64,000 bases of DNA from NCBI GenBank assembly GCA_023667345.1, contig JAMPAF010000004.1:1-64000 (forward strand), given 5' to 3'. The stretch's first letter is position 1; the number at the start of each line of letters is the position of its first letter. The DNA comes from Clostridiales bacterium. GTDB lineage: Bacteria > Bacillota > Clostridia > Christensenellales > Borkfalkiaceae. Below the pieces are notes generated by a model. It did not search any database. It was not told where the DNA came from and was given only the letters and a program-made list of their open reading frames with translations. Shown one piece after another: positions 1 to 16,612 of this stretch. The translations under genes and the position numbers were made by a program.

Positions 1-733
1 ACTCGTTGTAGTAGCCCAAAAGGTCTGTTCTTTCCTTCCACATGGGCTGTATGGGAACGACTACCGTCTTGTTGTCCAGATACTCGCCGAAAGCGTATGC
101 GAGCGAGGTTTTACCCGTGCCCGACATACCTTGCAGTATGATTAGCTTTGTTACAGCAAGTCCGCCTATGAACCTGCGGATATCCTCGATATCGTAATAC
201 AAATGCAGTGACCCCGCCGAGAAATTGCGAAAATCTTCACAAAGTTCCTTTAACCCTATCTTGTCGTCATAGTCGGGGCGCACGTAACTTTCGTACTCCT
301 TATCTATCTGCGTGAGCATATAGAACCGCGAACCGTCCGTATTGATATCTTCGTCGGGCTTGCCGTTCGCTACCTCGGCGGGGCTGGGCGCCGCTATCGC
401 CTGCTGAGCCATATTGCGGACGGGGGCGGGATAGCCCGCGGCGTTGGCAAGATTGCGCTTTACGTAGTTCAAATCGCCGCCTATTCTCTCGAAATGCTTG
501 TCTATCTTTTTGGACACGCCGTCGATTACCGCCTCTTGCGCCGCTTCCTCTTTGAGTTTGGCTTTGCGGCGCTCGCCCTCGACGCGCTCCTGCTCGCCGA
601 GCATTACTCTGATTGCGAGCACAACCACGAGCACTAATATCACCGTTATGTAAATTATCAGCGCGACCTTGCTTGTAAGCGCGGAAACGAGCTTCGGAAA
701 AAACTTATCCGCCGCTAAAATGCCGTACGTCAT
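1..733 (-). CDS. Membrane-anchored McrB-type AAA+ ATPase (C-terminus cut by window edge)
   Basis: The reading frame opens with ATG at 733 and runs off the left edge, leaving 244 N-terminal residues. Residues about 21-44 form one hydrophobic transmembrane segment. A charged, probably coiled-coil linker (45-95) and a low-complexity stretch follow. An AAA domain starts near 160, with Walker A GMSGTGKTS at 202-210 and the segment PIQPMWKERTDLLGYYNE, the pattern that follows Walker A in McrB/MoxR-like GTPases/ATPases. The start overlaps the stop of the upstream gene as ATGA, so the two are probably translationally coupled. The same order of motifs, with the P-loop lost, occurs at the C-terminus of that upstream protein. 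Inference: the two proteins form a mixed AAA assembly on the inner face of the membrane. The substrate is unknown. Confidence 0.8.
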   Translation of the reverse strand, partial: MTYGILAADKFFPKLVSALTSKVALIIYITVILVLVVVLAIRVMLGEQERVEGERRKAKLKEEAAQEAVIDGVSKKIDKHFERIGGDLNYVKRNLANAAGYPAPVRNMAQQAIAAPSPAEVANGKPDEDINTDGSRFYMLTQIDKEYESYVRPDYDDKIGLKELCEDFRNFSAGSLHLYYDIEDIRRFIGGLAVTKLIILQGMSGTGKTSLAYAFGEYLDNKTVVVPIQPMWKERTDLLGYYNE

Positions 734-3700
734 AAGCCCTCCTCCCCGTCGCCGTCCTGCTCCTCAACTGCGGGTTGTGCGACCGCTTCGGGTTGTTCTT
801 CAACTGTGGGTTCTTCCGTAGCCGCGGGCTCTTCTTCAACCGCCGTTTCAACTTGCTCGGGCTGAGCCGTTGCAACCGTTTCAACCTGCTCGGGCTGAAC
901 TTCCGCGACGCGCACGATTTTTGCAAGCGAACGTTTTATCTTCGTAAGTTCCTCGTCGCCGAACAGCTTTTCGACGATTGCAAACACCGTCTTTTCGCCG
1001 CCGTCCTGCCTGAACATGCGCGTGTTTTTGAGTATGTACGAAAGCTTTGCCAGAAACATATCGGTGACTGCTTCGGGCTCGTCTGCGCCGCACGCGAGCA
1101 GTACCGAGGTGTAACTTTCGCTCTGAATTATGTTTTTGTTGCCTATCGCAAACCTTTCGGTTGCGTTGATAGCTTCGCAGAGGCCGTCCACCTTGCGCCA
1201 TATCCTTTCGGTTACGTAGTATTCCTCTTTCGCTTCGGAAAGCATTAAAAGAAAATCTTCGTGCGAGAGAATTTTTGGTTCCGCCTCTTCGCCCTCGGTT
1301 ACCGTCGCGTCGGATAACATTACGTCGGCTACGAGAGCCGCGTTGAGTATTTCGGGCGGCAGCATATCCAAAACGCCGTCCTTTGCAACCAACACGTAGG
1401 TGAGATTGTCGGGCAGACGGAAGGACGTTTCCTCGTTAAAGTTTATTACGTACTCCTCGGTAGGGTGGTTTGCGTACTCCAAAAAGTTGCAAAAGTAACT
1501 GCCGAGGTTGTTTATGTTGACGTTTTCAATCACCAAAACGCGCTCCTGCTCGCGCGATTTGTGCGCGCCGTACACCGCGTTGGAAAAAGCCGAAAGCACG
1601 AATTTGCCGTCGCCCTCTTCCCAGAGAAGGTCGGAAAGCGCCTTCCAGCCGTCGTCGGCGCGGACGGGCATTTCGTTGCCGTAATACTCGTTCAGAATTT
1701 TAACGAACGCGGGCAGAAGTTCGGCGTTTTTCGAGGTTAAGAACACGAGCTTGCACGAGGCGATTGCCGCGACGAGCGAGCGCGCCGACGTTATTTCGAG
1801 GTTTATGCCCCTGTGCATTGCAAAGTTGCGCAGGTTTCTGCACAGCTCGCCGAAGGACACCTTTTCGGCGCGGGTCATATCGGCGGCTTCCGCGTCGTCG
1901 AAACGCACCTCGTACGTGGCGGCGAGCGCCTCGGCGGCTTGCTGCTCCGCCGTCTGCTCTTCGACAACCTCAGTCTCCGCTTCCGCCTCCTGCTCGACGG
2001 GCAGTTTGTATTTAACCTTCGCTATCTCGGTAAACTCGCCAACATTGTCGAGCATATCGGTAAGCACGGTGTTGGGGTGCAGATATTTCTGCTTTTTGCG
2101 CTGAGCCGCAACTACACATATGTACGTTACGGCAAGCCCGTTTACAACCAGCGCGACCGCCCCTATTACCGCGTAGAAAATTATATCCTTGTTAGCCACG
2201 GCGTTGCCGAGGACAAAGAAAACGAGTACCGCGTCCACGTAGAGCGCAAGCACGATTGCAATGGCTATGCGAAGGGCGACGGGCAGTTTTTTGCGCGCCG
2301 CTTTAACGTCGGCGGGAAGGTCGCTTTCGGTAAAGTCGACGGGCGTGCCGTCGGTCGACGTTTCCACCACCGCGTTCCTGAATTTACGCTTTTCGTCGTA
2401 CTCTTTGAGCATCAATATGCCCGAAAGCTTGTCCGTCGTCTCGCTGTCGCCTATCGACACGGTGTAGAGACCGCCCTCGACAAAGTAGCCCCTTTCCTGC
2501 GTATACTGGCTGAAAGTCGTTTCGTCGAAGGGTATTTTGACGCGAACCGCGTCGCCAGCGGGCACCTTTACCTTGGCAAAGCCCTTTAAAGATTTTTGTC
2601 TGAACGACGACTTTGTGTTCTTTTTGACGACGTACATGCGGGGCACCGCATAGCCGTCGCACGCGCCTGTGTTTTTTACCGTAAAGCTGACGCCGCTTTC
2701 GTTGACTTGCAGATTGCAATATTCGAACGAGGTGTACGAAAGCCCGAAGCCGAAGGGGAATTTTTCGATAAAGCCCTCCGCGCCTATAATGCCGGCGGAC
2801 GCCGCGAGTTTGCCCGACGGCGAAATTACGCCCGTTAAAATATCGAGCGCGGCGACCGTGCCGCCCTGACCCGATACGTACGTTAAAAGTACCGCGTCGC
2901 ACATATCCGCAAAGCTCATATCTATATTGCCGTCGCAAGCTACAACCGCCGCGATTTTGGCGTGCCTGCCCGCGATTGCGTTTAAAAGCTCCATCTGCTC
3001 GGGAGGCAGTCTGTCCGCGCCGTTCGGCGCCGAAAGATATAAAATAACGCAGTCGGCGTCGTTGCATAAAAGGTGCGCGTGGTCAATCAAATCGCTTCTG
3101 CCCCGCTCGCCCTTCTGATATCCCAGCCCGTAGCCGACTGTTTCGAGCTCGTACGCGTTTATCGCGGTAAAGGGCGAAGCTTCGGCGGTTGCCGCCGTGT
3201 CGTAATACCCCCGCTGATATTTCAAATCTTTCGCGTATTCGCCGAGCACGGCGATTTTTTTGCCGCGCCCCAAAGGCAAAAGCCCGCCCTCGTTTTTAAG
3301 CAAAACCGCCGACTGGCGCGCCGCTTCGAGCGCGAGTTCGTTGTGGTTTATCTCGTCGAAGAACGCCTTTTCGCCCTTTTTGAGCGAACGGAAGCCCTCC
3401 TCCGCGTTGTCCTTGTCGCTCTGCATCGAGAAGATGATGTCGATTACGTTGTCGCACGCTTTATCCAAAATTTCGCCGTTGAAGATTTTGAAATTCCTTA
3501 CAAGGCGGGCGAAACTGCTTTCGGGCATCTGGTCGTTGACGTAGCGCGCGTGCGCCTGCTTATACGACTGCGTAAGCTCGGTGAGCTTGTTTGCGAGGGC
3601 GTCCGTTATATCCTCGCTGAGGAACAAAAAAGATGCGCCGCTGTATAAAAAGTCGAGAGCTTCCTCGACGGTGGAAACGACGCCGAAAACCAGCCCCTTG

Positions 3701-4239
3701 TACTTAAACTTTTTAACCGCCGACTCCGCCTCGGCAACGTCCGAAAAGATTGCGGAGTCGGGCGCGGATGAGCCGAGCACGATATCGCGCACGCCCCGCC
3801 TTGCCGTCTCGTCGCCCTCGTCGTCGGAGGGAACGTCCTCGAAATTGACGTGCCCGCCGCCCCTTGCAAGACCGGAAATTTTTTCCGCGAGCATGCGGGC
3901 GAGAACGCAGTTGTCGGTGGTGAATTTTTCCCGCGATAAGTCGTTTGTGCAGTTAAAGTAGGCAAAGCTGTTTCTGGCGCGCGCCTCTTCGCCTATCGCG
4001 GCGTAAACGTCGGAAATAAGTTCGCCGTTCCAGGATGACGCCAAAGCCGCGTCGGAAGGGAAATGCGTTACGCGCACCCCTTTGCAGCTTTCGCCGAAGG
4101 GTTGGTTCTGAAGTTCGAAAACGGGGAATTCGTAGTTGCCGACCGTAGAGCTTTTATAAAACTCCGTCGAGGTGACGAGCTTTACTTTCTGCTCGGTCGA
4201 AAGCTTTACGATAAACCGTTCGTATTTTAAAACAGCCAT
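730..4239 (-). CDS. Degenerate GH3-like protein with two TM helices and an inactivated McrB-like AAA domain
   Basis: The protein has 1169 residues. Residues about 15-300 resemble a decayed GH3 N-terminal barrel. Residues 305-500 are a clear GH3 C-terminal sandwich (SAVLLKNEGGLLPL at 310-322, FPFGFGLSYTSFEY at 494-507), followed by an Fn3-like domain (about 515-610). I see neither the KH/HF motif nor the SDW nucleophile motif; GVVST near 186-190 sits where the nucleophile is expected, so hydrolysis is unlikely. There is no signal peptide. Two TM helices (653-678, 686-711) flanked by basic residues put both ends in the cytosol by the positive-inside rule. Residues about 795-975 align by eye with the neighbouring ATPase (ELC..RNF; W..LSDLL; Walker-B-like VLVIENVN at 901-908), but the P-loop is replaced by LTSKNAELL. 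An acidic Glu/Pro/Ala tail ends the protein. GGAG lies 5 nt before ATG 4239. Confidence 0.8.
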   Translation of the reverse strand: MAVLKYERFIVKLSTEQKVKLVTSTEFYKSSTVGNYEFPVFELQNQPFGESCKGVRVTHFPSDAALASSWNGELISDVYAAIGEEARARNSFAYFNCTNDLSREKFTTDNCVLARMLAEKISGLARGGGHVNFEDVPSDDEGDETARRGVRDIVLGSSAPDSAIFSDVAEAESAVKKFKYKGLVFGVVSTVEEALDFLYSGASFLFLSEDITDALANKLTELTQSYKQAHARYVNDQMPESSFARLVRNFKIFNGEILDKACDNVIDIIFSMQSDKDNAEEGFRSLKKGEKAFFDEINHNELALEAARQSAVLLKNEGGLLPLGRGKKIAVLGEYAKDLKYQRGYYDTAATAEASPFTAINAYELETVGYGLGYQKGERGRSDLIDHAHLLCNDADCVILYLSAPNGADRLPPEQMELLNAIAGRHAKIAAVVACDGNIDMSFADMCDAVLLTYVSGQGGTVAALDILTGVISPSGKLAASAGIIGAEGFIEKFPFGFGLSYTSFEYCNLQVNESGVSFTVKNTGACDGYAVPRMYVVKKNTKSSFRQKSLKGFAKVKVPAGDAVRVKIPFDETTFSQYTQERGYFVEGGLYTVSIGDSETTDKLSGILMLKEYDEKRKFRNAVVETSTDGTPVDFTESDLPADVKAARKKLPVALRIAIAIVLALYVDAVLVFFVLGNAVANKDIIFYAVIGAVALVVNGLAVTYICVVAAQRKKQKYLHPNTVLTDMLDNVGEFTEIAKVKYKLPVEQEAEAETEVVEEQTAEQQAAEALAATYEVRFDDAEAADMTRAEKVSFGELCRNLRNFAMHRGINLEITSARSLVAAIASCKLVFLTSKNAELLPAFVKILNEYYGNEMPVRADDGWKALSDLLWEEGDGKFVLSAFSNAVYGAHKSREQERVLVIENVNINNLGSYFCNFLEYANHPTEEYVINFNEETSFRLPDNLTYVLVAKDGVLDMLPPEILNAALVADVMLSDATVTEGEEAEPKILSHEDFLLMLSEAKEEYYVTERIWRKVDGLCEAINATERFAIGNKNIIQSESYTSVLLACGADEPEAVTDMFLAKLSYILKNTRMFRQDGGEKTVFAIVEKLFGDEELTKIKRSLAKIVRVAEVQPEQVETVATAQPEQVETAVEEEPAATEEPTVEEQPEAVAQPAVEEQDGDGEEGL

Positions 4240-4327: not shown

Positions 4328-4357
4328 ATTATATCATCTTGCACGCGTGTGTGTCAA
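4328..4357 (-). promoter_or_regulatory. SigmaA-type promoter of the GH3-like/AAA operon
   Basis: On the minus strand TTGACA (4357-4352) and TATAAT (4333-4328) are separated by 18 nt. The leader of about 80 nt contains two short GC-rich hairpins (arms CTCACGC/GCGTGAG and GCGCGG/CCGCGC) before the ribosome binding site of the 1169-residue gene. Confidence 0.75.
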
Positions 4358-4833: not shown

Positions 4834-6369
4834 TTATTTAAAGCGCATGAAAATGTTTTCCGCCGCGCGTATTCCGTCCGCCGCCGACGAGGTTATGCCG
4901 CCGCTGTACCCGCTCCCCTCGCCGCAGGGGTAAAGATTTTTTACGGACGTGCTCTGTCCGTCGTCGCCGCGCGTAATTTTCACGGGCGAGGAAAAGCGCG
5001 TTTCAACGCCCGTCATTACCGCCGAGCCGCCGTCGAAGCCTTTGAGCTTTTTACCCATATCGGGCACCGCCGCTTTAAGCGCGTCGCACGCGGCGCGGGG
5101 CAGAATTTCCGACAGCGGCGCGAAAACGGTGCCCGCCGCGTAGGTGGGGTTCACCTCGACGAAACTCTGCGAAATTCTGTCCGCGGCAAAATCTTTATAG
5201 AGTTGGCAAGGCGCCTTGTAGCTGCCGCCGCCGAGCAAAAACGCCTTTCTTTCGATTTCGCGCTGAAAGCGCACGCCCGCAAAGAGGTCGTCCCCGCAAA
5301 AGTCCCGCCGCCCCATCTGCACCATAAGCGCGGAGTTGGAATTTACGCCGTCGCGGGCGCGGTTGCTCATGCCGTTTACGACCACGCCGCCCTCCTCGCT
5401 CGCCGCGGGCATTACCACTCCCCCGGGGCACATACAGAATGTGAACACCGTCCGCTCGTGCGCGTGGCTGACGAGCTGATAGTCCGCCGCGGGCAGATAT
5501 TTCGCAAACCCGCCGTACTGCGCCGCCGATATGACCGACGAGAGGTGTTCTATCCGCACGCCCACAGCGAAGTCGCGCGGCTCCATATGCACGCCGCATT
5601 TATCGAGCATTTCATACGTGTCGCGCGCGGAGTGCCCCACGGCAAGAACCGCGGCGGCGACGGGCATTTCGCTCATCTCTCCGCTCTTCACGTTTTTTAG
5701 GGTGAGCGATTTGAGTTCGCCCTCTTCCGTCTTTATGCCGACGAGCTTTGTATCGAAAAGATATTCCCCGCCGTTTTCGGTTATGAAGGCGCGGATATTT
5801 TGAAGCACCGTGTACAGCTTATCGCTGCCGACGTGCGGTTTGTTGAGGTATAAAACGTCCTCGGGCGCACCGAAACGGACGAAGCCTTCAAGCACGTCGC
5901 GGTTGAAGCCGTCCTTGGTGCGGGTGTTGAGTTTGCCGTCCGAAAACGCACCCGCGCCGCCCTCGCCGAACTGCACGTTGCTTTCGGTATTCAGTCTGCC
6001 GCCGCCGAAGAAATTCAGGCAGCTTGTCTGCCTCTTTCCGACGGGCTCGCCCCGCTCGATTATGACAGGTTTAAACCCGTGAGCTATGAGCCGAAGCGCG
6101 CAAAACAGCCCCGCGGGTCCGCTGCCGACGACGGCTATTTGCGGCGGGTTTACAATCCTTTCGAACGCGGGTTCGGGTTCCTTTTCCTCTTCCGCCGAGC
6201 AAGCCACCGAATACAGCCAGAAAATGTTGCGTTTGTCGCGGGCGTCGAGCGATTTTTTTAAAATTTTAAAATATTTTACTTTCGCGCCGAGCTTCTTTGC
6301 GGCAATCTTCAAAAGGTCGCTTTCGGGAGCCGACGGGGAAAGTTTTACGTTGTCGAAACGCTTAATCAT
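4834..6369 (-). CDS. FAD-dependent dehydrogenase, COG2509 family
   Basis: A 511-residue flavoprotein of the large uncharacterised FAD-dependent dehydrogenase family common in Clostridia. The dinucleotide-binding motif GSGPAG is at 82-87, after an N-terminal extension of about 75 residues typical of this family. The C-terminal FAD-contact motif (CGEGSGYSGGITSSAADG) lies near 485-502. The protein is cytosolic with no signal peptide. Its 5' end overlaps the 3' end of the next flavoprotein gene by 8 nt, so they are probably co-transcribed. Substrate and physiological role are unknown for the family. The family call is confident, the reaction is not. Confidence 0.85.
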   Translation of the reverse strand: MIKRFDNVKLSPSAPESDLLKIAAKKLGAKVKYFKILKKSLDARDKRNIFWLYSVACSAEEEKEPEPAFERIVNPPQIAVVGSGPAGLFCALRLIAHGFKPVIIERGEPVGKRQTSCLNFFGGGRLNTESNVQFGEGGAGAFSDGKLNTRTKDGFNRDVLEGFVRFGAPEDVLYLNKPHVGSDKLYTVLQNIRAFITENGGEYLFDTKLVGIKTEEGELKSLTLKNVKSGEMSEMPVAAAVLAVGHSARDTYEMLDKCGVHMEPRDFAVGVRIEHLSSVISAAQYGGFAKYLPAADYQLVSHAHERTVFTFCMCPGGVVMPAASEEGGVVVNGMSNRARDGVNSNSALMVQMGRRDFCGDDLFAGVRFQREIERKAFLLGGGSYKAPCQLYKDFAADRISQSFVEVNPTYAAGTVFAPLSEILPRAACDALKAAVPDMGKKLKGFDGGSAVMTGVETRFSSPVKITRGDDGQSTSVKNLYPCGEGSGYSGGITSSAADGIRAAENIFMRFK

Positions 6370-7543
6370 CGTTGTTTAAAGAGTTCACAATGCACTTCGC
6401 CGCGTGCATGCCCGAAACGAGCGCCCAGGTTAAATTATAGCCGCCGCAATCGCCGTCGACGTCTAAAAGCTCGCCCGTAAAATAGAGGTTGGGCACCAGT
6501 CTGCTTTGAAGGTCGTCGTCAACCTCCGCGGCGGGCACCCCGCCCTTGGTTACCTGCGCGTAGTCGAAGCCGAGGCTCCCCTGCGCGGCGAGCGTGAAAT
6601 TTTTTACGGCGCGGGCAACGGTGCGCGGGTCACTGCTTTCTAAGCGGCGCATAATCGCCCTGCCTATCTGATTGTGCAGAGTGCCGCATAGAAGCTCGGC
6701 TTGCGCATATCCCTTTGAGAGTTTGTTTGCAACGTCCTCCGCTATCTTTTCCTCGGGGACGTCGGGCAGAAATTCGAGCGACAGCGTGACGCCGTCCTCG
6801 CCCGCGCAATACGCCGAAACGTAAAACGCCGCGTTGCCCGAAACGCCGTAGTCGGTGAAGATTATATCGCCCGTGGACGAGCCTAAAATTTTGCCGTCCT
6901 TACCCACCGCGGTTACGCGGCACTCGGTGCGTATGCCCTTTAACGTTTTGATATGGCGGGTGTCGCACTTCAACTGCACGAGCGAGGGATAAAGGGGCGT
7001 TACGCTGTGCCCGAGCCCCTGCGCGAGTTTGTACCCGCCGCCGTCCGTCCCGAACTGCTTTTGCGCTCTTCCCCCCGCCGCCAGAACCACTTTGTCCGCG
7101 GCTATCTTCCCGCCGTCCGAAAGGGTGAGAAAAAAGCCCTTGTTTACCGCGGTTACGGCGGTGGATAATCTGAGCTCCGCGCCCGACGCTTCGACCTTTC
7201 TTAAAAGGCAGTCGGAAAGGGCGGAACCTTGCTTACCTGCGGGATATATGCGCCCCAATCTGTCGGAAACAAATAAAAAATCGAAAATTCCGAGCGGGTT
7301 ATAGAGGCGCGAAGAGCACAGTTTTTCCGCCAAATGCGCACCGCTTCCGTGGTAGTGCTCCGCGCCCAAATCGGTGTTGGAAACGTTGCCCTGACCGTTG
7401 CCAGAAGCGGCGATTTTTTTGCCCGCGCGCTCCCCCTTTTCGATTACGACGACCGACAGATTTTTATCGAGTTCCTTTAAACGGACGGCGCAGGCAAGCC
7501 CCGACGCGCCGCCGCCTATTACGGCAATATCGTATTTTTGCAT
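6362..7543 (-). CDS. NAD(P)/FAD-dependent oxidoreductase, HI0933/BaiN-like family
   Basis: A 393-residue flavoprotein with the N-terminal Rossmann motif GGGASG at 10-15 and a conserved GNGQGNVSNTDL region downstream. The C-terminal FAD motif TGELLDVDGDCGGYNL is characteristic of the HI0933/YhiN (COG2081) family, which includes BaiN-type reductases. Length is normal for the family. It is the first gene of an overlapping pair with the COG2509 dehydrogenase. No substrate can be deduced from the sequence. Confidence 0.85.
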   Translation of the reverse strand: MQKYDIAVIGGGASGLACAVRLKELDKNLSVVVIEKGERAGKKIAASGNGQGNVSNTDLGAEHYHGSGAHLAEKLCSSRLYNPLGIFDFLFVSDRLGRIYPAGKQGSALSDCLLRKVEASGAELRLSTAVTAVNKGFFLTLSDGGKIAADKVVLAAGGRAQKQFGTDGGGYKLAQGLGHSVTPLYPSLVQLKCDTRHIKTLKGIRTECRVTAVGKDGKILGSSTGDIIFTDYGVSGNAAFYVSAYCAGEDGVTLSLEFLPDVPEEKIAEDVANKLSKGYAQAELLCGTLHNQIGRAIMRRLESSDPRTVARAVKNFTLAAQGSLGFDYAQVTKGGVPAAEVDDDLQSRLVPNLYFTGELLDVDGDCGGYNLTWALVSGMHAAKCIVNSLNNDD

Positions 7544-7574
7544 AGTGTAATTTTACATCTTCTCTGCGGTTATG

Positions 7575-8084
7575 TCAACAGGAAAGCCCCTCCAAACTCG
7601 CTTTAAGCTCCTGCAAATGCAGTTGTTCGTCCTCTAAAATTCTGCAAATCAGCGTGCGCAAAAGGTCGCTTTTCAGCCGCGGCAACATTCTTTCGTAGCC
7701 GTATATCGCATACTTTTCGCCCATTATATCGTCCTCTATCATATTGCGGAGAGTGCGCGAATAGGCGACGAATTTGGTGGAATAAAAATTGTACTGCGCT
7801 GGAGGCGAAAAGCTGTAAACGGGAGGCGAGCCTAAGCGGGCGAGAGCCTCGCCGAGCAAATCGAGGTGTATCATTTCGGCAATGGCAATGCTCTTTAAAA
7901 GCTCGGCGCGCACCCCGTCGCTCTTGCTTAAAAAGCTGATTGAGTGGTATATATACTGCAACGAAGCGTTTAATTCGCCCGACGAGGTTGCGTATGCGGA
8001 CGAGATTATCCGCGCGGCGTACGGGTCGGGCTGTAAGTTTTCGAGCGAGGGGTAAGCCCCCTCCGCTATCAGCGGTTTCGGCAT
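7575..8084 (-). CDS. Ferritin-like di-iron protein
   Basis: A four-helix ferritin-like protein of 169 residues. Metal-ligand candidates appear in the usual order: a Glu in SSGELNASLQY, ExxH in IAEMIHLDLL, a Glu in DDIMGEKYAIYGYE, and ExxH in EDEQLHLQEL. This E/ExxH/E/ExxH arrangement matches rubrerythrin/manganese-catalase-like proteins of anaerobes. No rubredoxin domain is present. I chose ATG 8084 because AAAGGGAGAG lies just upstream; a TTG further upstream lacks such a site. A role in peroxide or iron handling is inferred. Confidence 0.75.
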   Translation of the reverse strand: MPKPLIAEGAYPSLENLQPDPYAARIISSAYATSSGELNASLQYIYHSISFLSKSDGVRAELLKSIAIAEMIHLDLLGEALARLGSPPVYSFSPPAQYNFYSTKFVAYSRTLRNMIEDDIMGEKYAIYGYERMLPRLKSDLLRTLICRILEDEQLHLQELKASLEGLSC

Positions 8085-8189
8085 GGTTTTCGGCTCTCCC
8101 TTTGTTTTTTTGTGTATTAACAAAGTATTCGCGCCGCATTAAAAATGTGCGGCACGCAAGCTACGCCCGCACGCCGCACATTTTTAATC

Positions 8190-8553
8190 AATTCGGAATT
8201 AGGAATTAGGAATTCGCAATTGAGGTTGGAGTAATTAACCTCTATCCCCTCTTCGAGGTACTCTTCGCAGACTACGTAATTCTGGATTGCCACGGGCACA
8301 AGTGCCCTCGCAATGACGGGTACCGAACCCTCGCCTTCCCCTTTGAAGGGACGAACAACGCATTTCTCAAAACAGCACTGTGCGCTGTTTTGGCGTTGCG
8401 AGATGAGCAAACGCATACGTCCCGCGTTTGCGGTGCCCGAACACGCCGTTTTCCTTGCGGCGTGTGAGAAGGGTGGCTGCGTAGCAGACGAAAGAGGTTG
8501 GTTCTACTAATTATTCCTTAGCATAATTCTTAATTCTGAATTCTTAATTCTTA
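8190..8553. repeat. Composite dispersed repeat block (family A inverted, family D, TTAATTC heptads)
   Basis: The 470-nt spacer has no gene. It starts and ends with short tandem heptads of the type AATTAGG/TTAATTC. Between them is an inverted family A fragment (about 8240-8325) and family D (about 8340-8510): a run ending in 'aaaacagcac', its inverted copy 'gcgctgttttg', and 'acgtcccgcg'. The same composite occurs at 43360-43608 and 58855-59217. Confidence 0.7.
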
Positions 8554-8554
8554 A

Positions 8555-11371
8555 TTATTTTAATATTTCCTTTAAAAACTGACCCGTGTAGCTGTTTTCG
8601 CACGCCGCTATATCCTCGGGCGAGCCGCTCGCTATCAGCGTGCCGCCCCTGTCGCCCCCCTCGGGTCCTAAATCGACTATCCAGTCGCTCGTCTTTATTA
8701 CGTCTAAATTGTGCTCGATTACAATAACGGTGTTGCCGCCGTCGCGAAGGCGCGCAAGTATCCCTACAAGCTTGTCTACGTCGAAGGTGTGCAAGCCCGT
8801 GGTGGGCTCATCGAGGATATACACCGTTTTGCCCGTGCCGCGCTTAGAAAGTTCTGTTGCGAGCTTGACCCTCTGCGCCTCTCCGCCCGAAAGCGTAGTT
8901 GCGCTCTGCCCTAATTTTATATAGCCGAGCCCCACATCCACGAGCGTTTTCAGCTTGTTGTAGATGGACGAGACGGGTTCGAAAAATTCAGCCGCTTCGT
9001 CGACCGTCATTTCCAAAACGTCGGATATCGACTTGCCCTTGTACTTGACTTCGAGCGTTTCGCGGTTGTACCTCTTCCCTCCGCACACCTCGCACGGGAC
9101 GAAAATGTCGGGCAGAAAGTGCATGGCTATCTGCAAAATGCCGTCGCCCTGACAGTGTTCGCACCGCCCGCCCGCAACGTTGAACGAAAACCGCCCGCTC
9201 TTGTAGCCGCGCTCCTTTGCGTCGGGCGTAGCCGCGAACAGGTCGCGTATCATCGTAAACACGCCCGTGTACGTCGCGGGGTTGCTGCGCGGCGTTCTGC
9301 CTATGGGCTGCTGGTCGATTGCGATAACCTTGTCGAAATTTTCCAACCCCTCGTACCCCTCGGCGTTGCCCAGAATTTTGCGCGCGCCGTTTAGATTGTT
9401 TGCAAGATAGGGGTAAACTATCTCGTTGACAAGGCTCGATTTGCCGCTTCCCGATACGCCCGTAACCGTGGTTATGAGCCCCACGGGGAACTCGACGTCT
9501 ATGCCCTTTAAATTGTTCTGGCGGCACCCCTTGACTTTGAAAAATCTGCCGTCGGGCATCGCTCTTCTTTCGGGTACCTTTATCATTCTGCGCCCCGCAA
9601 GATAGTCGCCCGTAATGGAAAGCGGCTGGGACATAATGTCCTCCTGCGTGCCGCAAGCGACCACTTCGCCGCCGTGCACGCCCGCCTTCGGACCTATATC
9701 CACGATATAGTCCGCCGCTTTAATCGTGTCCTCGTCGTGCTCGACGACAATCAGCGTGTTGCCCAAATCCCGCAAGCCTTTCAAGGAATTCAGAAGCTTT
9801 TGATTGTCGCGCTGGTGAAGCCCTATTGACGGCTCGTCGAGGATATATAAAACGCCCGTGAGTGCGCTGCCTATCTGCGTTGCAAGGCGTATGCGCTGAC
9901 TTTCGCCGCCCGAGAGCGTCGCCGCCGAGCGGGACAGCGTTAAATATCCCAGTCCTACGTTTTCCAAAAAGCTTATGCGGTTGTTTATTTCCTTAATTAT
10001 GTTGTCGGCTATCATATGCTCGGTTTTGCCGAAGAAGGAAAAATCGGAAAACGCGTGCAATTCTTCGACCGACATATCGCATATCTCGGCTATGTTTTTG
10101 CCGCCGACGGTGACTGCGAGCGCCTCTTTTTTCAGCCTTTTGCCGTGACAGCAAGGGCAGTCGGACGTGCGCATATACCGCTCGATATCCCACTTTACGC
10201 TGTCGGACGAGGTCTGCTCGTAACGGCGTTGCAGGTTGGTGACAAAGCCTTCCCATGACTTGTTGAAGCTGCCCTTAAAATGGTAGGCGTTGTACTCCAT
10301 TTCAATCTTTTCGCCGCCGTTACCGTACATGAGCATATCATAGACACCCTTCGGCAAGTCCTTTACGGGCACGTCGAGCGAGAAGCCGTACACCTTTGCA
10401 AGCGAATTTAAATTCATCTGCGTGATGACTGAACTGTCCAGATTCCAGCCGCTTATTTTAATCGCGCCCTCGCGCAGAGATTTTGATTTGTCCGGACAGA
10501 TTAAATCGGGGTCGACAATCTGACGGAAGCCCAGTCCCGAACACTCGGGGCACGCGCCCCACGGGGTGTTGAAAGAGAAGAGACGCGGCTCTATCTCCTC
10601 TATCGAAATGCCGCAGTCGGGGCAGGCGTATTTGGTGGAATACAGCTCCTCTTTTCCCTCGCTGTCGATTACGACTATGCCGTCAGCGAGCTTTAACGCG
10701 CTTTCCAAGCTGTCGGTCAAACGCTTTAACACGCCATCTTTTACGACCAATCTGTCCACCACCACCGAAATGTTGTGGCGGATATTCTTTTCGAGGTGAA
10801 TCTCTTCCTGTAAATCGTACAGTGAGCCGTCGATTTTCACTCTGCCGTAGCCGCTCTTTTTGTAGCCCGTAAGCTCCTTGACGAACTCGCCCTTTTTGCC
10901 GCGCACAACGGGGGCTTCGACCATAATTTTACTGCCCGCAGGCAACAACATTACCCTGTCGGCTATCTCGTCGACCGACTGGCGGCGTATCTCTCTGCCG
11001 CAGTTGGGGCAGTGCGGAACGCCCACGCGCGCAAACAAAAGACGGAAGTAATCGTAAATTTCGGTCACCGTGCCTACCGTCGAACGCGGGTTGTGCGAGG
11101 TCGTTTTCTGGTCTATCGAGATTGCGGGCGAGAGCCCCTCGATAAGTTCGACGTCGGGTTTTTCCATCTGCCCCAAAAACTGGCGGGCGTACGAGGAAAG
11201 GCTTTCGATATACCGCCTTTGACCCTCGGCGAAGATGGTGTCGAACGCGAGCGTAGATTTGCCGCTGCCCGAAAGCCCCGTAAACACCGTTAAAGAGTTG
11301 CGGGGTATATGCACGTCGATATTTTTTAAATTGTTTTCCTTTGCGCCTTTAACAAAGATTTCTTCTTTCAT
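8555..11371 (-). CDS. uvrA: Excinuclease ABC subunit A
   Basis: A full-length UvrA of 938 residues, the damage-sensing ATPase of nucleotide excision repair. The first Walker A, GLSGSGKS, is at 32-39. Both ABC signatures (LSGGESQRIRLA and LSGGEAQRVKLA) are present, as is the second Walker A, GVSGSGKSS. Zinc-binding CxxC pairs are seen in CPNCGREI, in the insertion before CPECSGLG, and in CEHCQGDG/CEVCGG. It lies downstream of uvrB on the same strand, separated by a repeat element, so co-transcription is possible but not certain. uvrC is not in the window. Confidence 0.98.
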   Translation of the reverse strand: MKEEIFVKGAKENNLKNIDVHIPRNSLTVFTGLSGSGKSTLAFDTIFAEGQRRYIESLSSYARQFLGQMEKPDVELIEGLSPAISIDQKTTSHNPRSTVGTVTEIYDYFRLLFARVGVPHCPNCGREIRRQSVDEIADRVMLLPAGSKIMVEAPVVRGKKGEFVKELTGYKKSGYGRVKIDGSLYDLQEEIHLEKNIRHNISVVVDRLVVKDGVLKRLTDSLESALKLADGIVVIDSEGKEELYSTKYACPDCGISIEEIEPRLFSFNTPWGACPECSGLGFRQIVDPDLICPDKSKSLREGAIKISGWNLDSSVITQMNLNSLAKVYGFSLDVPVKDLPKGVYDMLMYGNGGEKIEMEYNAYHFKGSFNKSWEGFVTNLQRRYEQTSSDSVKWDIERYMRTSDCPCCHGKRLKKEALAVTVGGKNIAEICDMSVEELHAFSDFSFFGKTEHMIADNIIKEINNRISFLENVGLGYLTLSRSAATLSGGESQRIRLATQIGSALTGVLYILDEPSIGLHQRDNQKLLNSLKGLRDLGNTLIVVEHDEDTIKAADYIVDIGPKAGVHGGEVVACGTQEDIMSQPLSITGDYLAGRRMIKVPERRAMPDGRFFKVKGCRQNNLKGIDVEFPVGLITTVTGVSGSGKSSLVNEIVYPYLANNLNGARKILGNAEGYEGLENFDKVIAIDQQPIGRTPRSNPATYTGVFTMIRDLFAATPDAKERGYKSGRFSFNVAGGRCEHCQGDGILQIAMHFLPDIFVPCEVCGGKRYNRETLEVKYKGKSISDVLEMTVDEAAEFFEPVSSIYNKLKTLVDVGLGYIKLGQSATTLSGGEAQRVKLATELSKRGTGKTVYILDEPTTGLHTFDVDKLVGILARLRDGGNTVIVIEHNLDVIKTSDWIVDLGPEGGDRGGTLIASGSPEDIAACENSYTGQFLKEILK

Positions 11372-11384
11372 AAAATCACCTTAT

Positions 11385-11530
11385 TGTGACCTTCCCCTTT
11401 GGGGGAAGGTGTCGCCGACTTTTAGGCGGGGACGGATGAGGGGTTAGTAGGTTTATAAGAGCCAACCCCTCATTCGTCATTTTCTCATTCTTCGAAAATG
11501 CCACCTTCCCCCTAAGGGGAAGGTTAAATT
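11385..11530. repeat. Dispersed palindromic repeat, family C
   Basis: The element is bounded by the inverted ends 'accttcccctttggggg' and 'ccccctaaggggaaggt'. It contains the segment 'ggatgaggggtt' and its inverted partner 'aacccctcattcgtc'. The whole unit can fold into a long imperfect hairpin. It fills the uvrB-uvrA gap. Confidence 0.75.
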
Positions 11531-11571
11531 GCGGGCGAATTATTTAATAATTAACTCAATTCCGAATTAAC

Positions 11572-13548
11572 TCAGCTTTTCTTCGCCTTTAAAAGCTTCT
11601 TGCGAAGCTGCGAGATTGTGTCGCGGATTTCGATTGCCTTTTCGAAGTCGAGCTGGGCGGAAGCTACCTTCATTAAGCCCTTCAATTTTTCGATTTCGGC
11701 GGGAATATCCGCAAGCTTTATGTCGTCGCCCACGCTCTTTTTGTTAGTTATCCCGAGCGATATTTTGCTTTCCTTTATGATTGTTTTGGGCACAATGCCG
11801 TGCTCGTCGTTATACGCCTTCTGAATTTTGCGGCGGCGGGTCGTTTCGTCGATTGCGCGGCGCATACTGCCCGTTATCTCGTCCGCGTACATTATGACCC
11901 TGCCCTCGGCGTTTCGCGCCGCTCTGCCTATCGTCTGCACGAGCGCGGTCTCGCTGCGCAAAAAGCCCTCTTTGTCCGCGTCCAAAATCGCAACGAGCTT
12001 GACCTCGGGCAAATCCAGCCCCTCGCGCAGGAGGTTTATGCCGCACAGAACGTCGAACTCGTCGCCCCTAAGTCCGTTTATGATGTCGATACGCTCCAAC
12101 GCGTCGATGTCCGAGTGCATATAGCGCACCCTTTTCCCGTGTTCCTTTAAGTAGTCGGTCAAGCTTTCCGCCATGCGCTTGGTCATGGTGGTGACGAGCA
12201 CCTTGCCCCCGCCGCCGACGACGGAATTTATTTCGCCCAACAAATCGTCAATCTGCCCCTTTGTCGGGCGGATTGTCACCTCGGGGTCTAAAAGCCCCGT
12301 GGGGCGAATGAGCTGTTCGACCGTCTGCCCCGACTGTTCCAACTCGTACGGGGCGGGCGTTGCCGATACGCATATGAGCTGGGGCACCCGCCCGTCGAAT
12401 TCCTCGAAGGTCAAAGGGCGGTTGTCGTACGCCGATTTTAAGCGGAAGCCGTAGCCGACGAGGTTGTCCTTGCGGGAACGGTCGCCGTGATACATTGCGC
12501 GTATCTGCGGGATAGTCATATGGCTTTCGTCGATAAACACCAAAAATCTGCCCGCGGGGAAGTAGTCCAAAAGGGTGAACGACGGCTCGCCGGGGGCGCG
12601 CCCGTCAAAGTACCGCGAGTAGTTTTCGACACCGCTGCAATAGCCTATCTCCCGCATCATTTCGAGGTCGTAGCGGGTGCGCTGTTCGAGGCGTTGCGCT
12701 TCCAAAAGCTTGCCCTCGTCGCGGAAGGCTTTGACCTCGCTATTCATGTCGCATTCTATCATGGAGAGCGCGTGCTGCATTTTGTCGTTGCCCACCGCGT
12801 ACTGGCTGGCGGGGAAGATGAGCACGTGACTGAGCTGCGAGATAATGTTGCCCGTGAGCGCGTCCTCTTCGCAGATTCTGTCTATCTCGTCGCCGAAAAA
12901 CTCGACGCGGACAGCGACTTCCGAATTGCTCGCGGGGAAAATTTCGACCGTGTCGCCGCGCACTCTGAAACACGAACGGTGAAAGTCGGTATCGTTGCGC
13001 TGGTACTGAATTTCGACAAGCTTTCTTAAAAGGTCGTCGCGGTTCATTTCGTCGCCCGGGCGCATGGAAATCGCGAGGCGGAAATACTCCTCGGGCGCGC
13101 CCAAGCCGTATATGCACGAGACGGATGCGACAACAATCACGTCCTCCCTTTCGCCCAAAGAGCTGGTTGCCGAGTTGCGGAGCTTGTCTATCTCATCGTT
13201 CAGGCTCATATCCTTTTCGATATAGGTGTCGGTCGAGGGGATATAGCTTTCGGGCTGATAGTAGTCGTAGTACGAAACGAAGTACTCGACGCGGTTTTCG
13301 GGGAAGAACTCCTTGAACTCGTTACAAAGCTGTGCAGCGAGCGTCTTGTTGTGCGCGATGACGAGCGTGGGGCGGTTGACTGCCTTTATCACGTTTGCCA
13401 TGGTAAAGGTTTTACCCGAACCGGTTACGCCCAAAAGCACCTGCGTGCGTATGCCGTCCTCTACGCCCTCGACAAGCTTTTCTATCGCCTGCGGCTGGTC
13501 GCCCGTGGGCTCGTATTTCGAATGAAGTTTAAATTCACGTTTTTCCAT
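11572..13548 (-). CDS. uvrB: Excinuclease ABC subunit B
   Basis: A full-length UvrB helicase-like subunit (658 residues). Walker A is GVTGSGKT. The beta-hairpin that inserts between DNA strands is seen as [20 protein letters not shown]. Helicase motifs DESH and QTIGRAARN are intact. A C-terminal UVR domain ([19 protein letters not shown]) provides the UvrC contact. The gene has its own promoter (13600-13572) and a LexA-like box between promoter and start, which suggests SOS control. Confidence 0.98.
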
Positions 13549-13549
13549 A

Positions 13550-13600
13550 CAAACAAAAGTTCCGTATTTCTATTATAGGTCGGGCGAAGAAAAAAATCAA
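13550..13600 (-). promoter_or_regulatory. uvrB promoter with LexA-like box
   Basis: On the minus strand TTGATT (13600-13595) and TATAAT (13577-13572) are 17 nt apart. Between the predicted start site and the ATG lies GGAACTTTTGTTTG (13563-13550), matching the Gram-positive SOS box core (GAAC-N4-GTT) at most symmetric positions. Confidence 0.6.
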
Positions 13601-13627
13601 GCAAATTATTGACCTTGCGGACAATAT

Positions 13628-14320
13628 TTATAATAGCTCTTTTATCACCTCGGAAGCTATCAAAAGCCCCGCCGCGGGCGGCACGAAGGATACCGAGCCG
13701 GGCACGCGCATATCCTCTTCCGCGCTTATCTTGCGAGTGGGCTCTTCCTCGGAATAGATTACTTTAAGTTTGTTTACGCCCTCCTTTTTCAGCTCTCTGC
13801 GCATGACCCTTGCAAGCGGACAGACGGACGTCTTATATATGTCGGCAACCTTGAACCCCATGGGGTTGAGCTTGTTGCCCGTGCCCATACACGATATGAG
13901 CGGCACGCCCGCACTCTGACAGTTTACCGCGAGCATTATCTTGGAAGTCACGCAGTCTATCGCGTCTACAACGCAGTCGTAAAGCGTAAAATCGAACTGA
14001 TTTTCGGTGTCTTTATTATAGAAAATATTGCGTTCGTTGGCACATATGTGGGGGTTAATCGCCTTTACGCGCTCTGCGGCGACCTCGCACTTTGCCCTGC
14101 CGACGGTCGTGTGCAGAGCGATAATCTGGCGGTTGATATTACTTTCGGCAACCGTGTCGCCGTCAATCAAATCGAGCGTTCCCACCCCCGCGCGGGCGAG
14201 AGCTTCGACGACGTAGCCGCCCACTCCGCCCAGCCCGAAAACGGCTACGCGGCTATTATTTAACTTTTGTATTGCGCCCTCTCCCAACACGAGCGCGGTG
14301 CGTTCGAACTGTTTTTGCAT
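13628..14320 (-). CDS. tcdA: tRNA threonylcarbamoyladenosine dehydratase (ThiF/MoeB-E1 family)
   Basis: A 230-residue member of the E1-like superfamily. The ATP-binding motif GLGGVGG is at 29-35. The acidic segment LIDGDTVAESNINRQ follows, as in TcdA/CsdL. TcdA cyclises t6A37 to ct6A in tRNA. The length and the C-terminal motif GSVSFVPPAAGLLIASEV match TcdA better than MoeB or ThiF. Downstream is the regulator/kinase pair, separately terminated. Confidence 0.88.
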   Translation of the reverse strand: MQKQFERTALVLGEGAIQKLNNSRVAVFGLGGVGGYVVEALARAGVGTLDLIDGDTVAESNINRQIIALHTTVGRAKCEVAAERVKAINPHICANERNIFYNKDTENQFDFTLYDCVVDAIDCVTSKIMLAVNCQSAGVPLISCMGTGNKLNPMGFKVADIYKTSVCPLARVMRRELKKEGVNKLKVIYSEEEPTRKISAEEDMRVPGSVSFVPPAAGLLIASEVIKELL

Positions 14321-14350
14321 ACGCGTATTATATCACCGCAAAAGAAGAAA

Positions 14351-14369
14351 AGCAACACAATGTGTTGCT
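14351..14369 (-). terminator. Intrinsic terminator after the histidine kinase gene
   Basis: The perfect palindrome agcaacacaatgtgttgct is followed on the minus strand by TTTTCTTCTTTT. It lies downstream of the kinase stop codon, beyond a fragment of the family C/D repeat (about 14390-14490). Confidence 0.6.
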
Positions 14370-14505
14370 CTATGTTTCAATTTTAAATAGCCAACTCCTG
14401 TTCGGCTTCGTGCGGTCTGAGTAATCAACCTCTTCCGTCACTTGCAGTGACACCTTCCCCTTCAAAGTGGAAGGCAAGGTTATGGGGCGCATTGACAATT
14501 ATGAA

Positions 14506-15810
14506 TTACGCCGACGGGAAGTCTACGTAGAACGTCGAGCCCTCGCCCACCGAGGTGTTTACGCCGAAATTAAAGCCGTGCTTTTGCAGAATTACCTTGA
14601 CTATATTCAAGCCTAATCCCGTGCCCTTTACAGGGCGCAAGTGACTGTCTTTACTGCGGTAATATCTGTCCCAGATATGCGCGAGCTCGTCCTCTTCTAT
14701 GCCCTTACCCGTATCGCGGACGGCAAAATTAATGCGCTTGTCTGCGGCATTGTATTTTAATGTTACGTAGATTGTCTTGTCGTCGCCCGTGTAGTTTACG
14801 GCGTTGGATATGAGGTTGTAGATGACCTGATAAATCTGTTCCTCGTCGGCGAGAGTGTACAGCTCGGTATCCACGTCGACCATTACAGAGTACCCCTGCG
14901 TTTCCTGCAAGTAGCTGAATTTATTGATTACGCCGTACAAAAGCTCTGTTAAATTGAACACCTTTTTGTTGAGCTGTTCAAGCCCCGCGGTTATCTTCGA
15001 CGTGCTTAAAATGTCGTTTACAAGCCCCGTAAGGCGGTCGGCTTCGTCGATTATAACGTCGAGGTGCTTCTCCCTCTTTTCGGGGTCGTTGCCCGAAATT
15101 TCCTTTATCATCGAAGCGTACGCCTTTATCATTGTGAGCGGCGTCTTTAAGTCGTGCGAGACGTTTGCCAAAAGCTCTTTGCGGAAGTCCTCGCTCTTTT
15201 TAATCTCGTCCTTCATATAGTTGAGCGTATCGGAAAGCTTGGCTATCTCGTCGTACTGTGCCGAATTGAACTGCACGTCGTAGTTGCCTCCCGCAAGCTT
15301 TTGCGCCGTGCCCGAAATCTCACGCAGAGGTCCCGAAAGCTTGTTTGCAAGCGAGTAGGATATTAAAAAGGCTATCACGAACGCCACGAGCCCGACGATA
15401 AGAAGATAAACTTCCATTCTCCGCACGAGCTCGGCAATGTGCGTGACGGGGTAGCGGACAAGCAGTTTATACTGCTCACCGCCGAGCGTGACGCACGCGC
15501 CGTAATTGAACGTTGTGCGGTTGCCGCTGCGCGAGCTGTACTCTACCTCTTTGCCCTCCTTCCACTCGCCGAGGCGGGTATCGAGAGAGGAATACACGGG
15601 CGCGATTTTATCTTCCGAGATTGCGGCGTACGGCATTTCGAGTTCGCCGTCCATACCGAAAACGAACGCGTCTACGCCGTCCGAGAGCGAGTAGTCAGTA
15701 ATTTTTAAAACTATTTCCTCCGCGGTTGCTCCGCCGTTTATCAGCCCCGCCAATTCGCCGCCTACCGCGCTCACGCGCCGCCTTGACTGCGACATTACGG
15801 TGTTGCCCAA
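14506..15810 (-). CDS. Membrane sensor histidine kinase (N-terminus unresolved)
   Basis: The sensor kinase has an extracytoplasmic region and a TM segment (VYLLIVGLVAFVIAFLISYS). HAMP, the H-box LLANVSHDLKTPLTM and the ATPase boxes (DTGKGIEEDE, GTGLGLNIV) follow. The first standard start is TTG 15810 or ATG 15795, but the same frame stays open to 15966. The extra part encodes an obvious first TM helix (LWRYFTFFALGVIAVIAIVC at about 15884-15825) typical of such kinases. No ATG, GTG or TTG precedes that helix. The true start is probably non-standard (ATA at 15963-15961 follows AAGGGGTG), or there is a frameshift or assembly error. It pairs with the upstream response regulator. Confidence 0.85.
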   Translation of the reverse strand: MGNTVMSQSRRRVSAVGGELAGLINGGATAEEIVLKITDYSLSDGVDAFVFGMDGELEMPYAAISEDKIAPVYSSLDTRLGEWKEGKEVEYSSRSGNRTTFNYGACVTLGGEQYKLLVRYPVTHIAELVRRMEVYLLIVGLVAFVIAFLISYSLANKLSGPLREISGTAQKLAGGNYDVQFNSAQYDEIAKLSDTLNYMKDEIKKSEDFRKELLANVSHDLKTPLTMIKAYASMIKEISGNDPEKREKHLDVIIDEADRLTGLVNDILSTSKITAGLEQLNKKVFNLTELLYGVINKFSYLQETQGYSVMVDVDTELYTLADEEQIYQVIYNLISNAVNYTGDDKTIYVTLKYNAADKRINFAVRDTGKGIEEDELAHIWDRYYRSKDSHLRPVKGTGLGLNIVKVILQKHGFNFGVNTSVGEGSTFYVDFPSA

Positions 15811-15946
15811 AATGCCGAAACAGACTATTGCTATTACGGCTATGACCCCCAGCGCGAAGAAGGTGAAATACCTCCATAAAATTATGTTCGTGCTGTTTAC
15901 TCTTTTAAGTTTTAAAGGCTTGCGGCGGCTCGCTTTCCCCGCCTTT

Positions 15947-16612
15947 TCAGACTTCGAACTTATACCCTACACCCCTTAAAGTCACGATAAATTTGCGGTA
16001 CTGCTTTAAGTTTGCCCGCAGCATTTTTATGTGCGTGTCCACCGTGCGGTCGTCGCCGTAGAAGTCGAAACCCCACACGTCGTATAAAAGCTTTTCGCGC
16101 GTCAAAGCAATGCCTTTGTTCTTTATAAAGTAAAATAGAATTTCGTACTCCTTGGGGGTGAGCTCGACCTTTTCGCCGTCGACGTACACGTTGCGCCCCG
16201 CAAAGTCCACGGTGAGCCCCTCGAAGGTTACGCTGTCGCCCGTCTCGTCCTTCTGCTTTCTGCGCTTTGTAACAACGTTTATGCGCGCCATAACCTCTTT
16301 GGGCGAAAAGGGCTTGGTCACGTAGTCGTCGACGCCTATCTCGAACCCGAAAAGTTTGTCGTACTCCTCGCCCCTCGCCGACAGCATTATCACGGGGATA
16401 TCCTTGAATTTTTTAATTTCCTTTACGGCGGAAAACCCGTCGAGGCGGGGCATCATTACGTCCATTAAAATCACGTCGAAGTCTTCCTCGCGGCACATCT
16501 TCACGGCTTGCATACCGTCCGCCGCCTCGAACGCCTCGTTGCCCTCGAACTCAACGTACTCTTTCAAAACGTTTCTTATCATATCTTCGTCGTCAACAAT
16601 CAGCACGCGCAT
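15947..16612 (-). CDS. OmpR/PhoB-family response regulator
   Basis: A 221-residue regulator. The receiver domain has acidic residues DDED at 7-10, the phospho-acceptor Asp at about 51 (LMDVMMPRLDG), and the conserved Lys in VTKPFSPKE. A C-terminal winged helix (LTPKEYEILFYFIKNKG ... RTVDTHIKMLR) binds DNA. A good Shine-Dalgarno site (AGGAGG) precedes ATG 16612. It is the first gene of a two-component operon; its stop lies inside the open frame of the kinase. The stimulus and regulon cannot be read from the sequence. Confidence 0.93.
   Translation of the reverse strand: MRVLIVDDEDMIRNVLKEYVEFEGNEAFEAADGMQAVKMCREEDFDVILMDVMMPRLDGFSAVKEIKKFKDIPVIMLSARGEEYDKLFGFEIGVDDYVTKPFSPKEVMARINVVTKRRKQKDETGDSVTFEGLTVDFAGRNVYVDGEKVELTPKEYEILFYFIKNKGIALTREKLLYDVWGFDFYGDDRTVDTHIKMLRANLKQYRKFIVTLRGVGYKFEV

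Follow-up and report, generated by a model that had tools for sequence, protein, structure and literature searches.

What does a McrB-type NTPase do when it is anchored in a membrane and encoded beside a relative that has lost its P-loop? The question is raised by two genes at the left end of a 64,000-nucleotide stretch, referred to here as the window, that covers positions 1–64000 of contig C30 (100,377 bp) in the 1.59 Mb, 35-contig genome of a Clostridiales bacterium. An earlier note on this DNA had read the two genes as a coupled pair of active and inactive McrB-type AAA proteins and had offered defence or surveillance as one hypothesis for their role. Here we show that the pair is real and is one end of a longer operon, truncated by the contig end. 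Judged by its motifs, gene 1 is a double pseudo-enzyme in which a dead glycoside hydrolase family 3 (GH3) module is fused to a dead McrB-type NTPase domain (psAAA). With moderate confidence, we propose from comparison with related genomes that genes 1 and 2 begin an operon whose products make up an NTPase machine at the membrane, derived from McrBC and serving giant surface proteins; a restriction role is unlikely. The GH3 half, a second NTPase, a coiled-coil partner and the giant cargo were all absent from the earlier note. Work on McrBC has concerned a defence enzyme that cuts DNA; in gut Firmicutes, a large group of systems that has not been studied seems to turn the same NTPase and activator to the service of the cell surface.

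The gene pair and its pseudo-enzyme subunit

Gene 1 (730..4239; 1,169 aa) encodes, in order, a pseudo-GH3 module, a transmembrane (TM) hairpin, the pseudo-McrB domain psAAA and an acidic tail; gene 2 (2..733) encodes the first 244 aa of a membrane-anchored McrB-type NTPase and is open at the contig end. Both genes, and every feature of the operon mapped here in the window, lie on the reverse strand. The physical picture drawn by the earlier note holds throughout: the genes are where it placed them, they share an ATGA stop/start overlap (730..733), and a single strong promoter precedes them, a consensus sigma-70 site (4328..4357; TTGACA-18-TATAAT, with TG before the −10 element) that matches 12 of 12 consensus positions about 90 bp ahead of gene 1. 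Promoter-like sites number four in the window, against a shuffled mean of 1.1 (sd 0.9).

The claimed likeness between the two proteins is also borne out. Residues 792–872 of gene 1 align with residues 157–239 of gene 2 (26% identity, E = 2e-4, BLASTP). Complete relatives of gene 2 match the C-terminal part of gene 1 along some 300–480 residues, with E values from 7e-4, for the C13 paralogue of the same genome, to 2e-21. The P-loop GMSGTGKT is kept in gene 2 (107..130, residues 202–209); the opposing segment of gene 1 reads SKNAELLP, and a P-loop pattern is absent from the whole of gene 1. Hydropathy places an N-terminal hydrophobic anchor in gene 2 (590..703, residues 11–48) and a hydrophobic stretch in gene 1 (2113..2298, residues 648–709), so that both proteins carry the membrane segments attributed to them.

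The psAAA domain (904..1857; profile match 916–1857, E = 9e-104) is McrB-type and lacks Walker A, Walker B, the NxD motif and the arginine pair. None of the 50 psAAA domains compared (49 relatives and that of the window) keeps Walker A, Walker B, NxD or the DR pair; two of the proteins contain a P-loop-like pattern, in both cases outside the domain. Across 126 NTPases, Walker A is present in 121, Walker B in 122 and NxD, as NNDD or NDDD, in 122, the remainder being gapped at these positions. When PDB sequences were searched with a profile of 29 psAAA domains, E. coli McrB alone was matched at E ≤ 1 (best 1.3e-5), and the C-terminal domain of gene 1 accordingly belongs inside the McrB family, as first suggested. 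In a midpoint-rooted tree of 103 NTPases and 50 psAAA domains, the NTPase clade excludes psAAA (support 0.966) and 44 of the 50 psAAA domains fall in one clade (support 0.932). From the separation of the two clades we take the dead domain to be a long-standing lineage that did not arise by repeated decay. By motif, psAAA is a McrB-family domain that is not predicted to be an active NTPase.

The other half of gene 1 has its best PDB matches, over the first 600 residues, among GH3 glycosidases. It comprises an N-domain remnant whose catalytic residues are lost (3307..4239, residues 1–311), a GH3_C domain (2734..3306, residues 312–502; Pfam PF01915, E = 1.6e-23) and an Fn3-like domain (2443..2646, residues 532–599; PF14310, E = 8.4e-11). 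The genome also encodes a genuine GH3 enzyme, 780 aa long and containing VVSDWGG; gene 1 is identical to it at 105 of 315 aligned residues in the C-domain and Fn3 part and at 43 of 244 in the N-domain, where, in gene 1, valine occupies the nucleophile position. Neither the SDW nucleophile motif nor the KHF motif was found by motif search in any of 34 gene 1 relatives. In the alignment, the nucleophile column holds Asp in 5 of the 34 and the KH column His in 1, the N-domain alignment being loose and the motif search the firmer test. Gene 1 therefore shares GH3_C and Fn3-like domains with GH3 beta-glucosidases but differs from them in its eroded N-domain, the loss of SDW and KHF, the lack of a signal peptide and the fusion to a TM hairpin and psAAA. 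The GH3 module is predicted to be catalytically dead. That it might be an active secreted enzyme was considered and rejected on three counts: no signal peptide is seen by eye, the catalytic motifs are lost and the TM counts point to the cytosol.

These counts come from the junction between the GH3 module and psAAA, scored by simple hydropathy. The stretch at residues 648–709 gives three peaks, interpreted as two helices and read as a two-helix hairpin. In 34 junctions, peaks number two or four in 28, three in 2, one in 3 and none in 1. The protein without a junction TM segment is that of Anaerocaecibacter muris (locus L093), a cultured mouse-gut species in which the rest of the core is complete. 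Since an even number of TM peaks, or none in A. muris, would leave the GH3 module and psAAA on the same side of the membrane, we read both as cytosolic. The cultured host also makes bench tests of the system possible.

Conserved gene order and paired NTPases

We searched 301 genomes of the same family, 110 of which contain a gene 2 relative, and compared neighbourhoods in 20 loci and in 77 named loci from a scan (the best 80 of 595 stretches, 574 of them confirmed). A conserved order emerges: GH3–psAAA, NTPase, a DUF2357-like coiled-coil partner, a second NTPase and then giant genes. Loci labelled Lachnospiraceae, Anaeroplasmataceae, Bacilli and others encode a psAAA protein that lacks the GH3 module.

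Adjacency of the pair is conserved. In 39 of 49 loci fetched through the NTPase, the open reading frame (ORF) list places psAAA and then the NTPase within 150 bp; the remaining 10 have the same order once all frames are searched, having been masked by longer antisense ORFs or overlaps. As these 49 loci had been fetched through the NTPase, a second search was seeded with psAAA. Among the matches listed, 52 family genomes contain a psAAA frame of 867–1342 aa, two of the frames with one in-frame TGA. By manual reading of the search listings, the NTPase is next in 43 of the 52, and in 8 more the contig ends inside the NTPase start. Coincidental adjacency was rejected, the order being the same in all 49 loci of the first search and in 51 of the 52 genomes of the second. 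Neither a C-terminal domain outside AAA+ nor genes that are never adjacent, the two outcomes named as counting against the pair, was seen. At the level of the class, the psAAA profile has matches in 35 of 391 genomes, many of them being NTPases or short hits to other AAA proteins.

The same evidence bears on the idea that gene 1 is a functionless leftover, a degraded glycosidase joined by chance to a degraded AAA gene. The loss of both catalytic centres is what such decay would leave behind, yet frames of this length stay open in 52 genomes, the gene order is fixed, the promoter is perfect and psAAA recurs without GH3 in other lineages. The conserved frames, order and promoter indicate selection and in practice refute decay, to which we assign almost no probability. 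A subunit that appears doubly dead, as glycosidase and as NTPase, is nonetheless conserved.

The NTPases that accompany psAAA are McrB-like and seem intact. Their profile matches McrB chains alone among PDB sequences at E ≤ 0.1 (best 1.4e-5), and they carry the NxD motif of the CoCoPALM group. We compared the last 1 kb of DNA in 35 loci with two complete NTPases. The two copies within a locus are 94–100% identical in 20 of the 35, with the best copy from another genome reaching at most 89.4%, and the within-locus pair is the best match in 23 of the 35. The N-terminal anchors differ, the first NTPase having one hydrophobic stretch and the second a two-helix hairpin. The simple reading is that, in some lineages, gene conversion has acted on the catalytic domain. 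Such converted domains would explain why this contig and others end inside the NTPase, and they would make the pair a natural experiment on mixed NTPase rings. Contig breaks inside or near the first NTPase are found at the start of C30 and the end of C7 in this genome (G000) and at contig ends in genomes G064, G120, G131, G186 and G277.

A TM segment is present on the NTPase. In a Pfam scan of 12 sequences for an FtsB-like fusion on the NTPase, which we had considered, FtsL_2 appeared once at E = 0.026 and the FtsB/DivIC family was not found. Pfam detects DUF2357, the activator domain of McrC, in 12 of 20 coiled-coil partners (E ≤ 0.01), and the partner matches the DUF2357 protein of the window's genome at E = 1.7e-26. 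A Pfam scan of the same 20 partners gave no nuclease family, and a nuclease within the partner was rejected as a candidate. Loci L142 and L145 contain a much longer NTPase protein (AAA, 1115 aa) together with a coiled-coil partner.

Giant surface proteins and sister loci

The expected downstream half of the window's operon is found on another contig of the same genome. The end of contig C7 encodes the final 84 residues of an NTPase, 96% identical to those of locus L082. After this NTPase end, on the same strand, come a 2,092-aa protein and then one of about 5,390 aa (L174, L175), the latter length combining two open pieces of 4,367 and 1,026 aa that flank a fetch border and were not joined. 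Further genes of C7 encode a 379-aa multi-TM protein and proteins of 268, 324 and 1,587 aa. Searches of this genome did not recover the remainder of gene 2, the coiled-coil partner or the greater part of the second NTPase.

Giant proteins of this kind recur with psAAA. We counted as cargo any co-directional, N-terminally anchored protein with at least three YDG-type motifs, which we take to be MBG repeats, within 9 kb of the core. Such cargo is present in 22 of 26 GH3–psAAA loci and 13 of 15 GH3-less psAAA loci (35 of 41 psAAA loci together), in 4 of 9 other two-NTPase loci and in 8 of 31 single-NTPase loci. Pfam recognises transglutaminase, AgI_II_C2 and YDG domains in some cargo proteins and nothing in others, and in one YDG-type protein AgI_II_C2 lies above the cut-off and YDG just below it. 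Nearby leucine-rich repeat proteins are BspA-like.

The giant repeat proteins have one N-terminal TM segment, and the larger one of C7 carries ahead of it a short tail motif, YxxYxx[KR], followed by basic residues. This tail is present in 44 downstream proteins and in none of 312 ORFs elsewhere in the loci or 40 other long N-anchored ORFs. As a motif predicted to face the cytosol, it is a testable candidate docking site.

Loci with a single NTPase form a sister group with a different setting. S26 signal peptidases, detected with a hidden Markov model seeded from six of these single-NTPase loci (11 sequences), are found in 19 of the 31, and two or more secreted proteins of the AWF type are encoded in 15 of the 31. 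Both features are missing from all 50 other loci, which are of the same type as the window's or contain two NTPases. S26 and psAAA were never seen in the same locus here. One S26 protein matches SipW at 3e-33, under the curated cut-off, and an archaeal-type signal peptidase model above its cut-off. A clean division of cargo by kind of locus was rejected: the S26 loci L123 and L126 each hold a co-directional protein with exactly three YDG motifs.

The window's own genome has such a sister locus on contig C13 (L063:105-10954), with two S26-like proteins, a single NTPase, a DUF2357 protein and an STFAWFT secreted protein. After it lie two EAL-domain proteins, enzymes of cyclic di-GMP (c-di-GMP) metabolism, and locus L062 of another genome contains the same set. 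This recurrence makes c-di-GMP control of fibres at C13-type loci possible. Inside another sister locus are two pairs of a small ATPase-like gene and a partner (L139:6447-8319 and L139:15589-17461), insertion-like in appearance, which by eye seem to resemble abortive-infection pairs.

The tail and the c-di-GMP enzymes bear on an alternative in which the giant proteins are adhesins exported by Sec and the NTPase–psAAA complex signals from outside in, sensing tension or binding through the tails, with no part in export or assembly. A conserved cytosolic tail beside a TM segment would suit such a role, as would the two c-di-GMP enzymes that adjoin the sister locus of the same genome, and the fusion of a pseudo-enzyme with a pseudo-NTPase is a layout common among sensors. 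Yet no kinase, regulator or second-messenger gene was recognised in the 77 loci among the proteins chosen for Pfam search, and the tie of the sister loci to secreted-protein processing through S26 better fits biogenesis. We regard signalling as unlikely, while giving it real weight.

Known systems and a candidate mechanism

The closest relative among described systems is CoCoPALM, which Bell et al. (eLife 2024, PMC11090510) describe briefly and defer to a later paper. That article gives it an NxD NTPase, an FtsB-like TM segment with a coiled coil, and signal-peptidase neighbours likely to act in pilus assembly. Shared with the operon studied here are an NxD McrB-type NTPase fused to TM and helical segments, a McrC-like (DUF2357) coiled-coil partner, the lack of a recognised nuclease and a link to surface structures; the single-NTPase sister loci, with their S26 peptidases and AWF-type signal-peptide secreted proteins, fit the description directly. 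The differences are that the three mentions of CoCoPALM in the article say nothing of an inactive NTPase subunit, fusion to GH3, a second NTPase, concerted evolution or giant repeat proteins, and that operons of the window's type lack a nearby signal peptidase (0 of 50 loci). The window operon is best read as a variant next to CoCoPALM. Supplements aside, searches of the literature on McrB with family-3 glycosidases and on SipW, TasA, AAA and DUF2357, and of that since 2023 on McrBC with pilus assembly or signal peptidase, showed no account of the quartet of GH3–psAAA, two NTPases and coiled-coil partner; the quartet, the double pseudo-enzyme and the giant cargo look new.

A degraded McrB-family protein has a precedent in PcdA of Staphylococcus aureus, which is reported to have degraded Walker motifs and to have been co-opted away from restriction (PMC10602043). 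PcdA is a single EVE-domain cell-division protein, whereas the dead domain here would partner intact NTPases within an operon.

With McrBC, the E. coli type IV restriction system, the operon shares a McrB-family NTPase (PDB matches 6hz4 and 6ut6) and a DUF2357-like partner, and with CoCoNuT systems the NxD motif, long coiled coils and a McrC partner often without an active nuclease (PMC11090510). It differs from McrBC in having no recognised nuclease or DNA-reading domain and in its membrane anchors, pseudo-NTPase and surface cargo, and from CoCoNuT in its membrane anchors, its giant surface proteins and the lack of a recognised HEPN or other nuclease, none having been found in the part of the operon proteins that was scanned.

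This comparison decides how far the defence or surveillance role of the earlier note can be carried, namely a ring in the style of McrBC or CoCoNuT that detects nucleic acid or damage to the membrane and then either cleaves the invader or kills the cell. Beyond the McrB-family NTPase and its DUF2357-like partner, such a role draws on the PADLOC model PDC-M26A, a phage-defence candidate that matches the NTPase at E = 2e-14 in the window fragment and at 3e-44 and 7e-46 in complete relatives, and on weak similarity of coiled coils to JetC and LmuB (E = 1e-6 at best). Yet the core genes encode no recognised nuclease or other effector, and in the DUF2357-like partner a coiled coil takes the place of the nuclease; nuclease-less CoCoNuT systems, according to PMC11090510, always carry another predicted nuclease. 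The window neighbours of the operon are housekeeping genes, the conserved partners are surface proteins, and relatives of the coiled-coil partner are absent from 72,556 plasmid and 50,697 phage records at E ≤ 1e-10. Of the earlier proposal, the McrB-type pair stands, through the profile and the conserved order, and the defence role is not supported; we consider defence improbable, and more so than signalling. PDC-M26A may itself describe a relative of the surface-linked NTPase group.

How a machine serving giant surface proteins might work can be put forward only tentatively. The two NTPases and psAAA would together build a single mixed ring at the inner membrane face, into which the DUF2357 protein would plug and stimulate hydrolysis as McrC does. 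As a fixed, non-hydrolysing position, psAAA would make the ring asymmetric, and the homogenised NTPase domains would stay interchangeable within it. The cytosolic tails of the giant proteins would dock on the machine, and NTP hydrolysis would export, assemble or position them, with the GH3-like module serving in the cytosol as a scaffold or to bind a ligand. We infer from sequence both the hetero-oligomeric ring and a regulatory role of psAAA, as the earlier note had foreshadowed. The full scheme, in which a ring with one dead subunit and two alternately anchored, gene-converted subunits exports or assembles giant proteins by gripping their tails, with the dead GH3 module as cytosolic scaffold or ligand gauge, is a possibility that we hold with clearly less confidence than the link to surface proteins; if true, it would be a surface-protein machine of a new kind, made from restriction parts.

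Several observations pull the other way. To the NTPase match with a phage-defence model (PDC-M26A, E = 3e-44) are added one genome (G221) without the first NTPase; odd or zero TM counts in 6 of 34 junctions, with three peaks in the window's own; and 12 of 35 loci (L128, L131, L136, L137 and L155 included) in which the NTPase of another genome is the better match. DUF2357 is reached by just 12 of the 20 coiled-coil partners, and the best 60 of 449 PDB sequences matched by the partner profile are coiled coils, with no McrC among them. The tail motif is missing from 132 other proteins within three genes downstream, and it was picked by eye from the same proteins in which it was counted, so that the control tests specificity only.

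Beside the operon, the window encodes at 4834..16612 two FAD oxidoreductases, a ferritin-like protein, UvrA, UvrB, a ThiF protein and a two-component pair.

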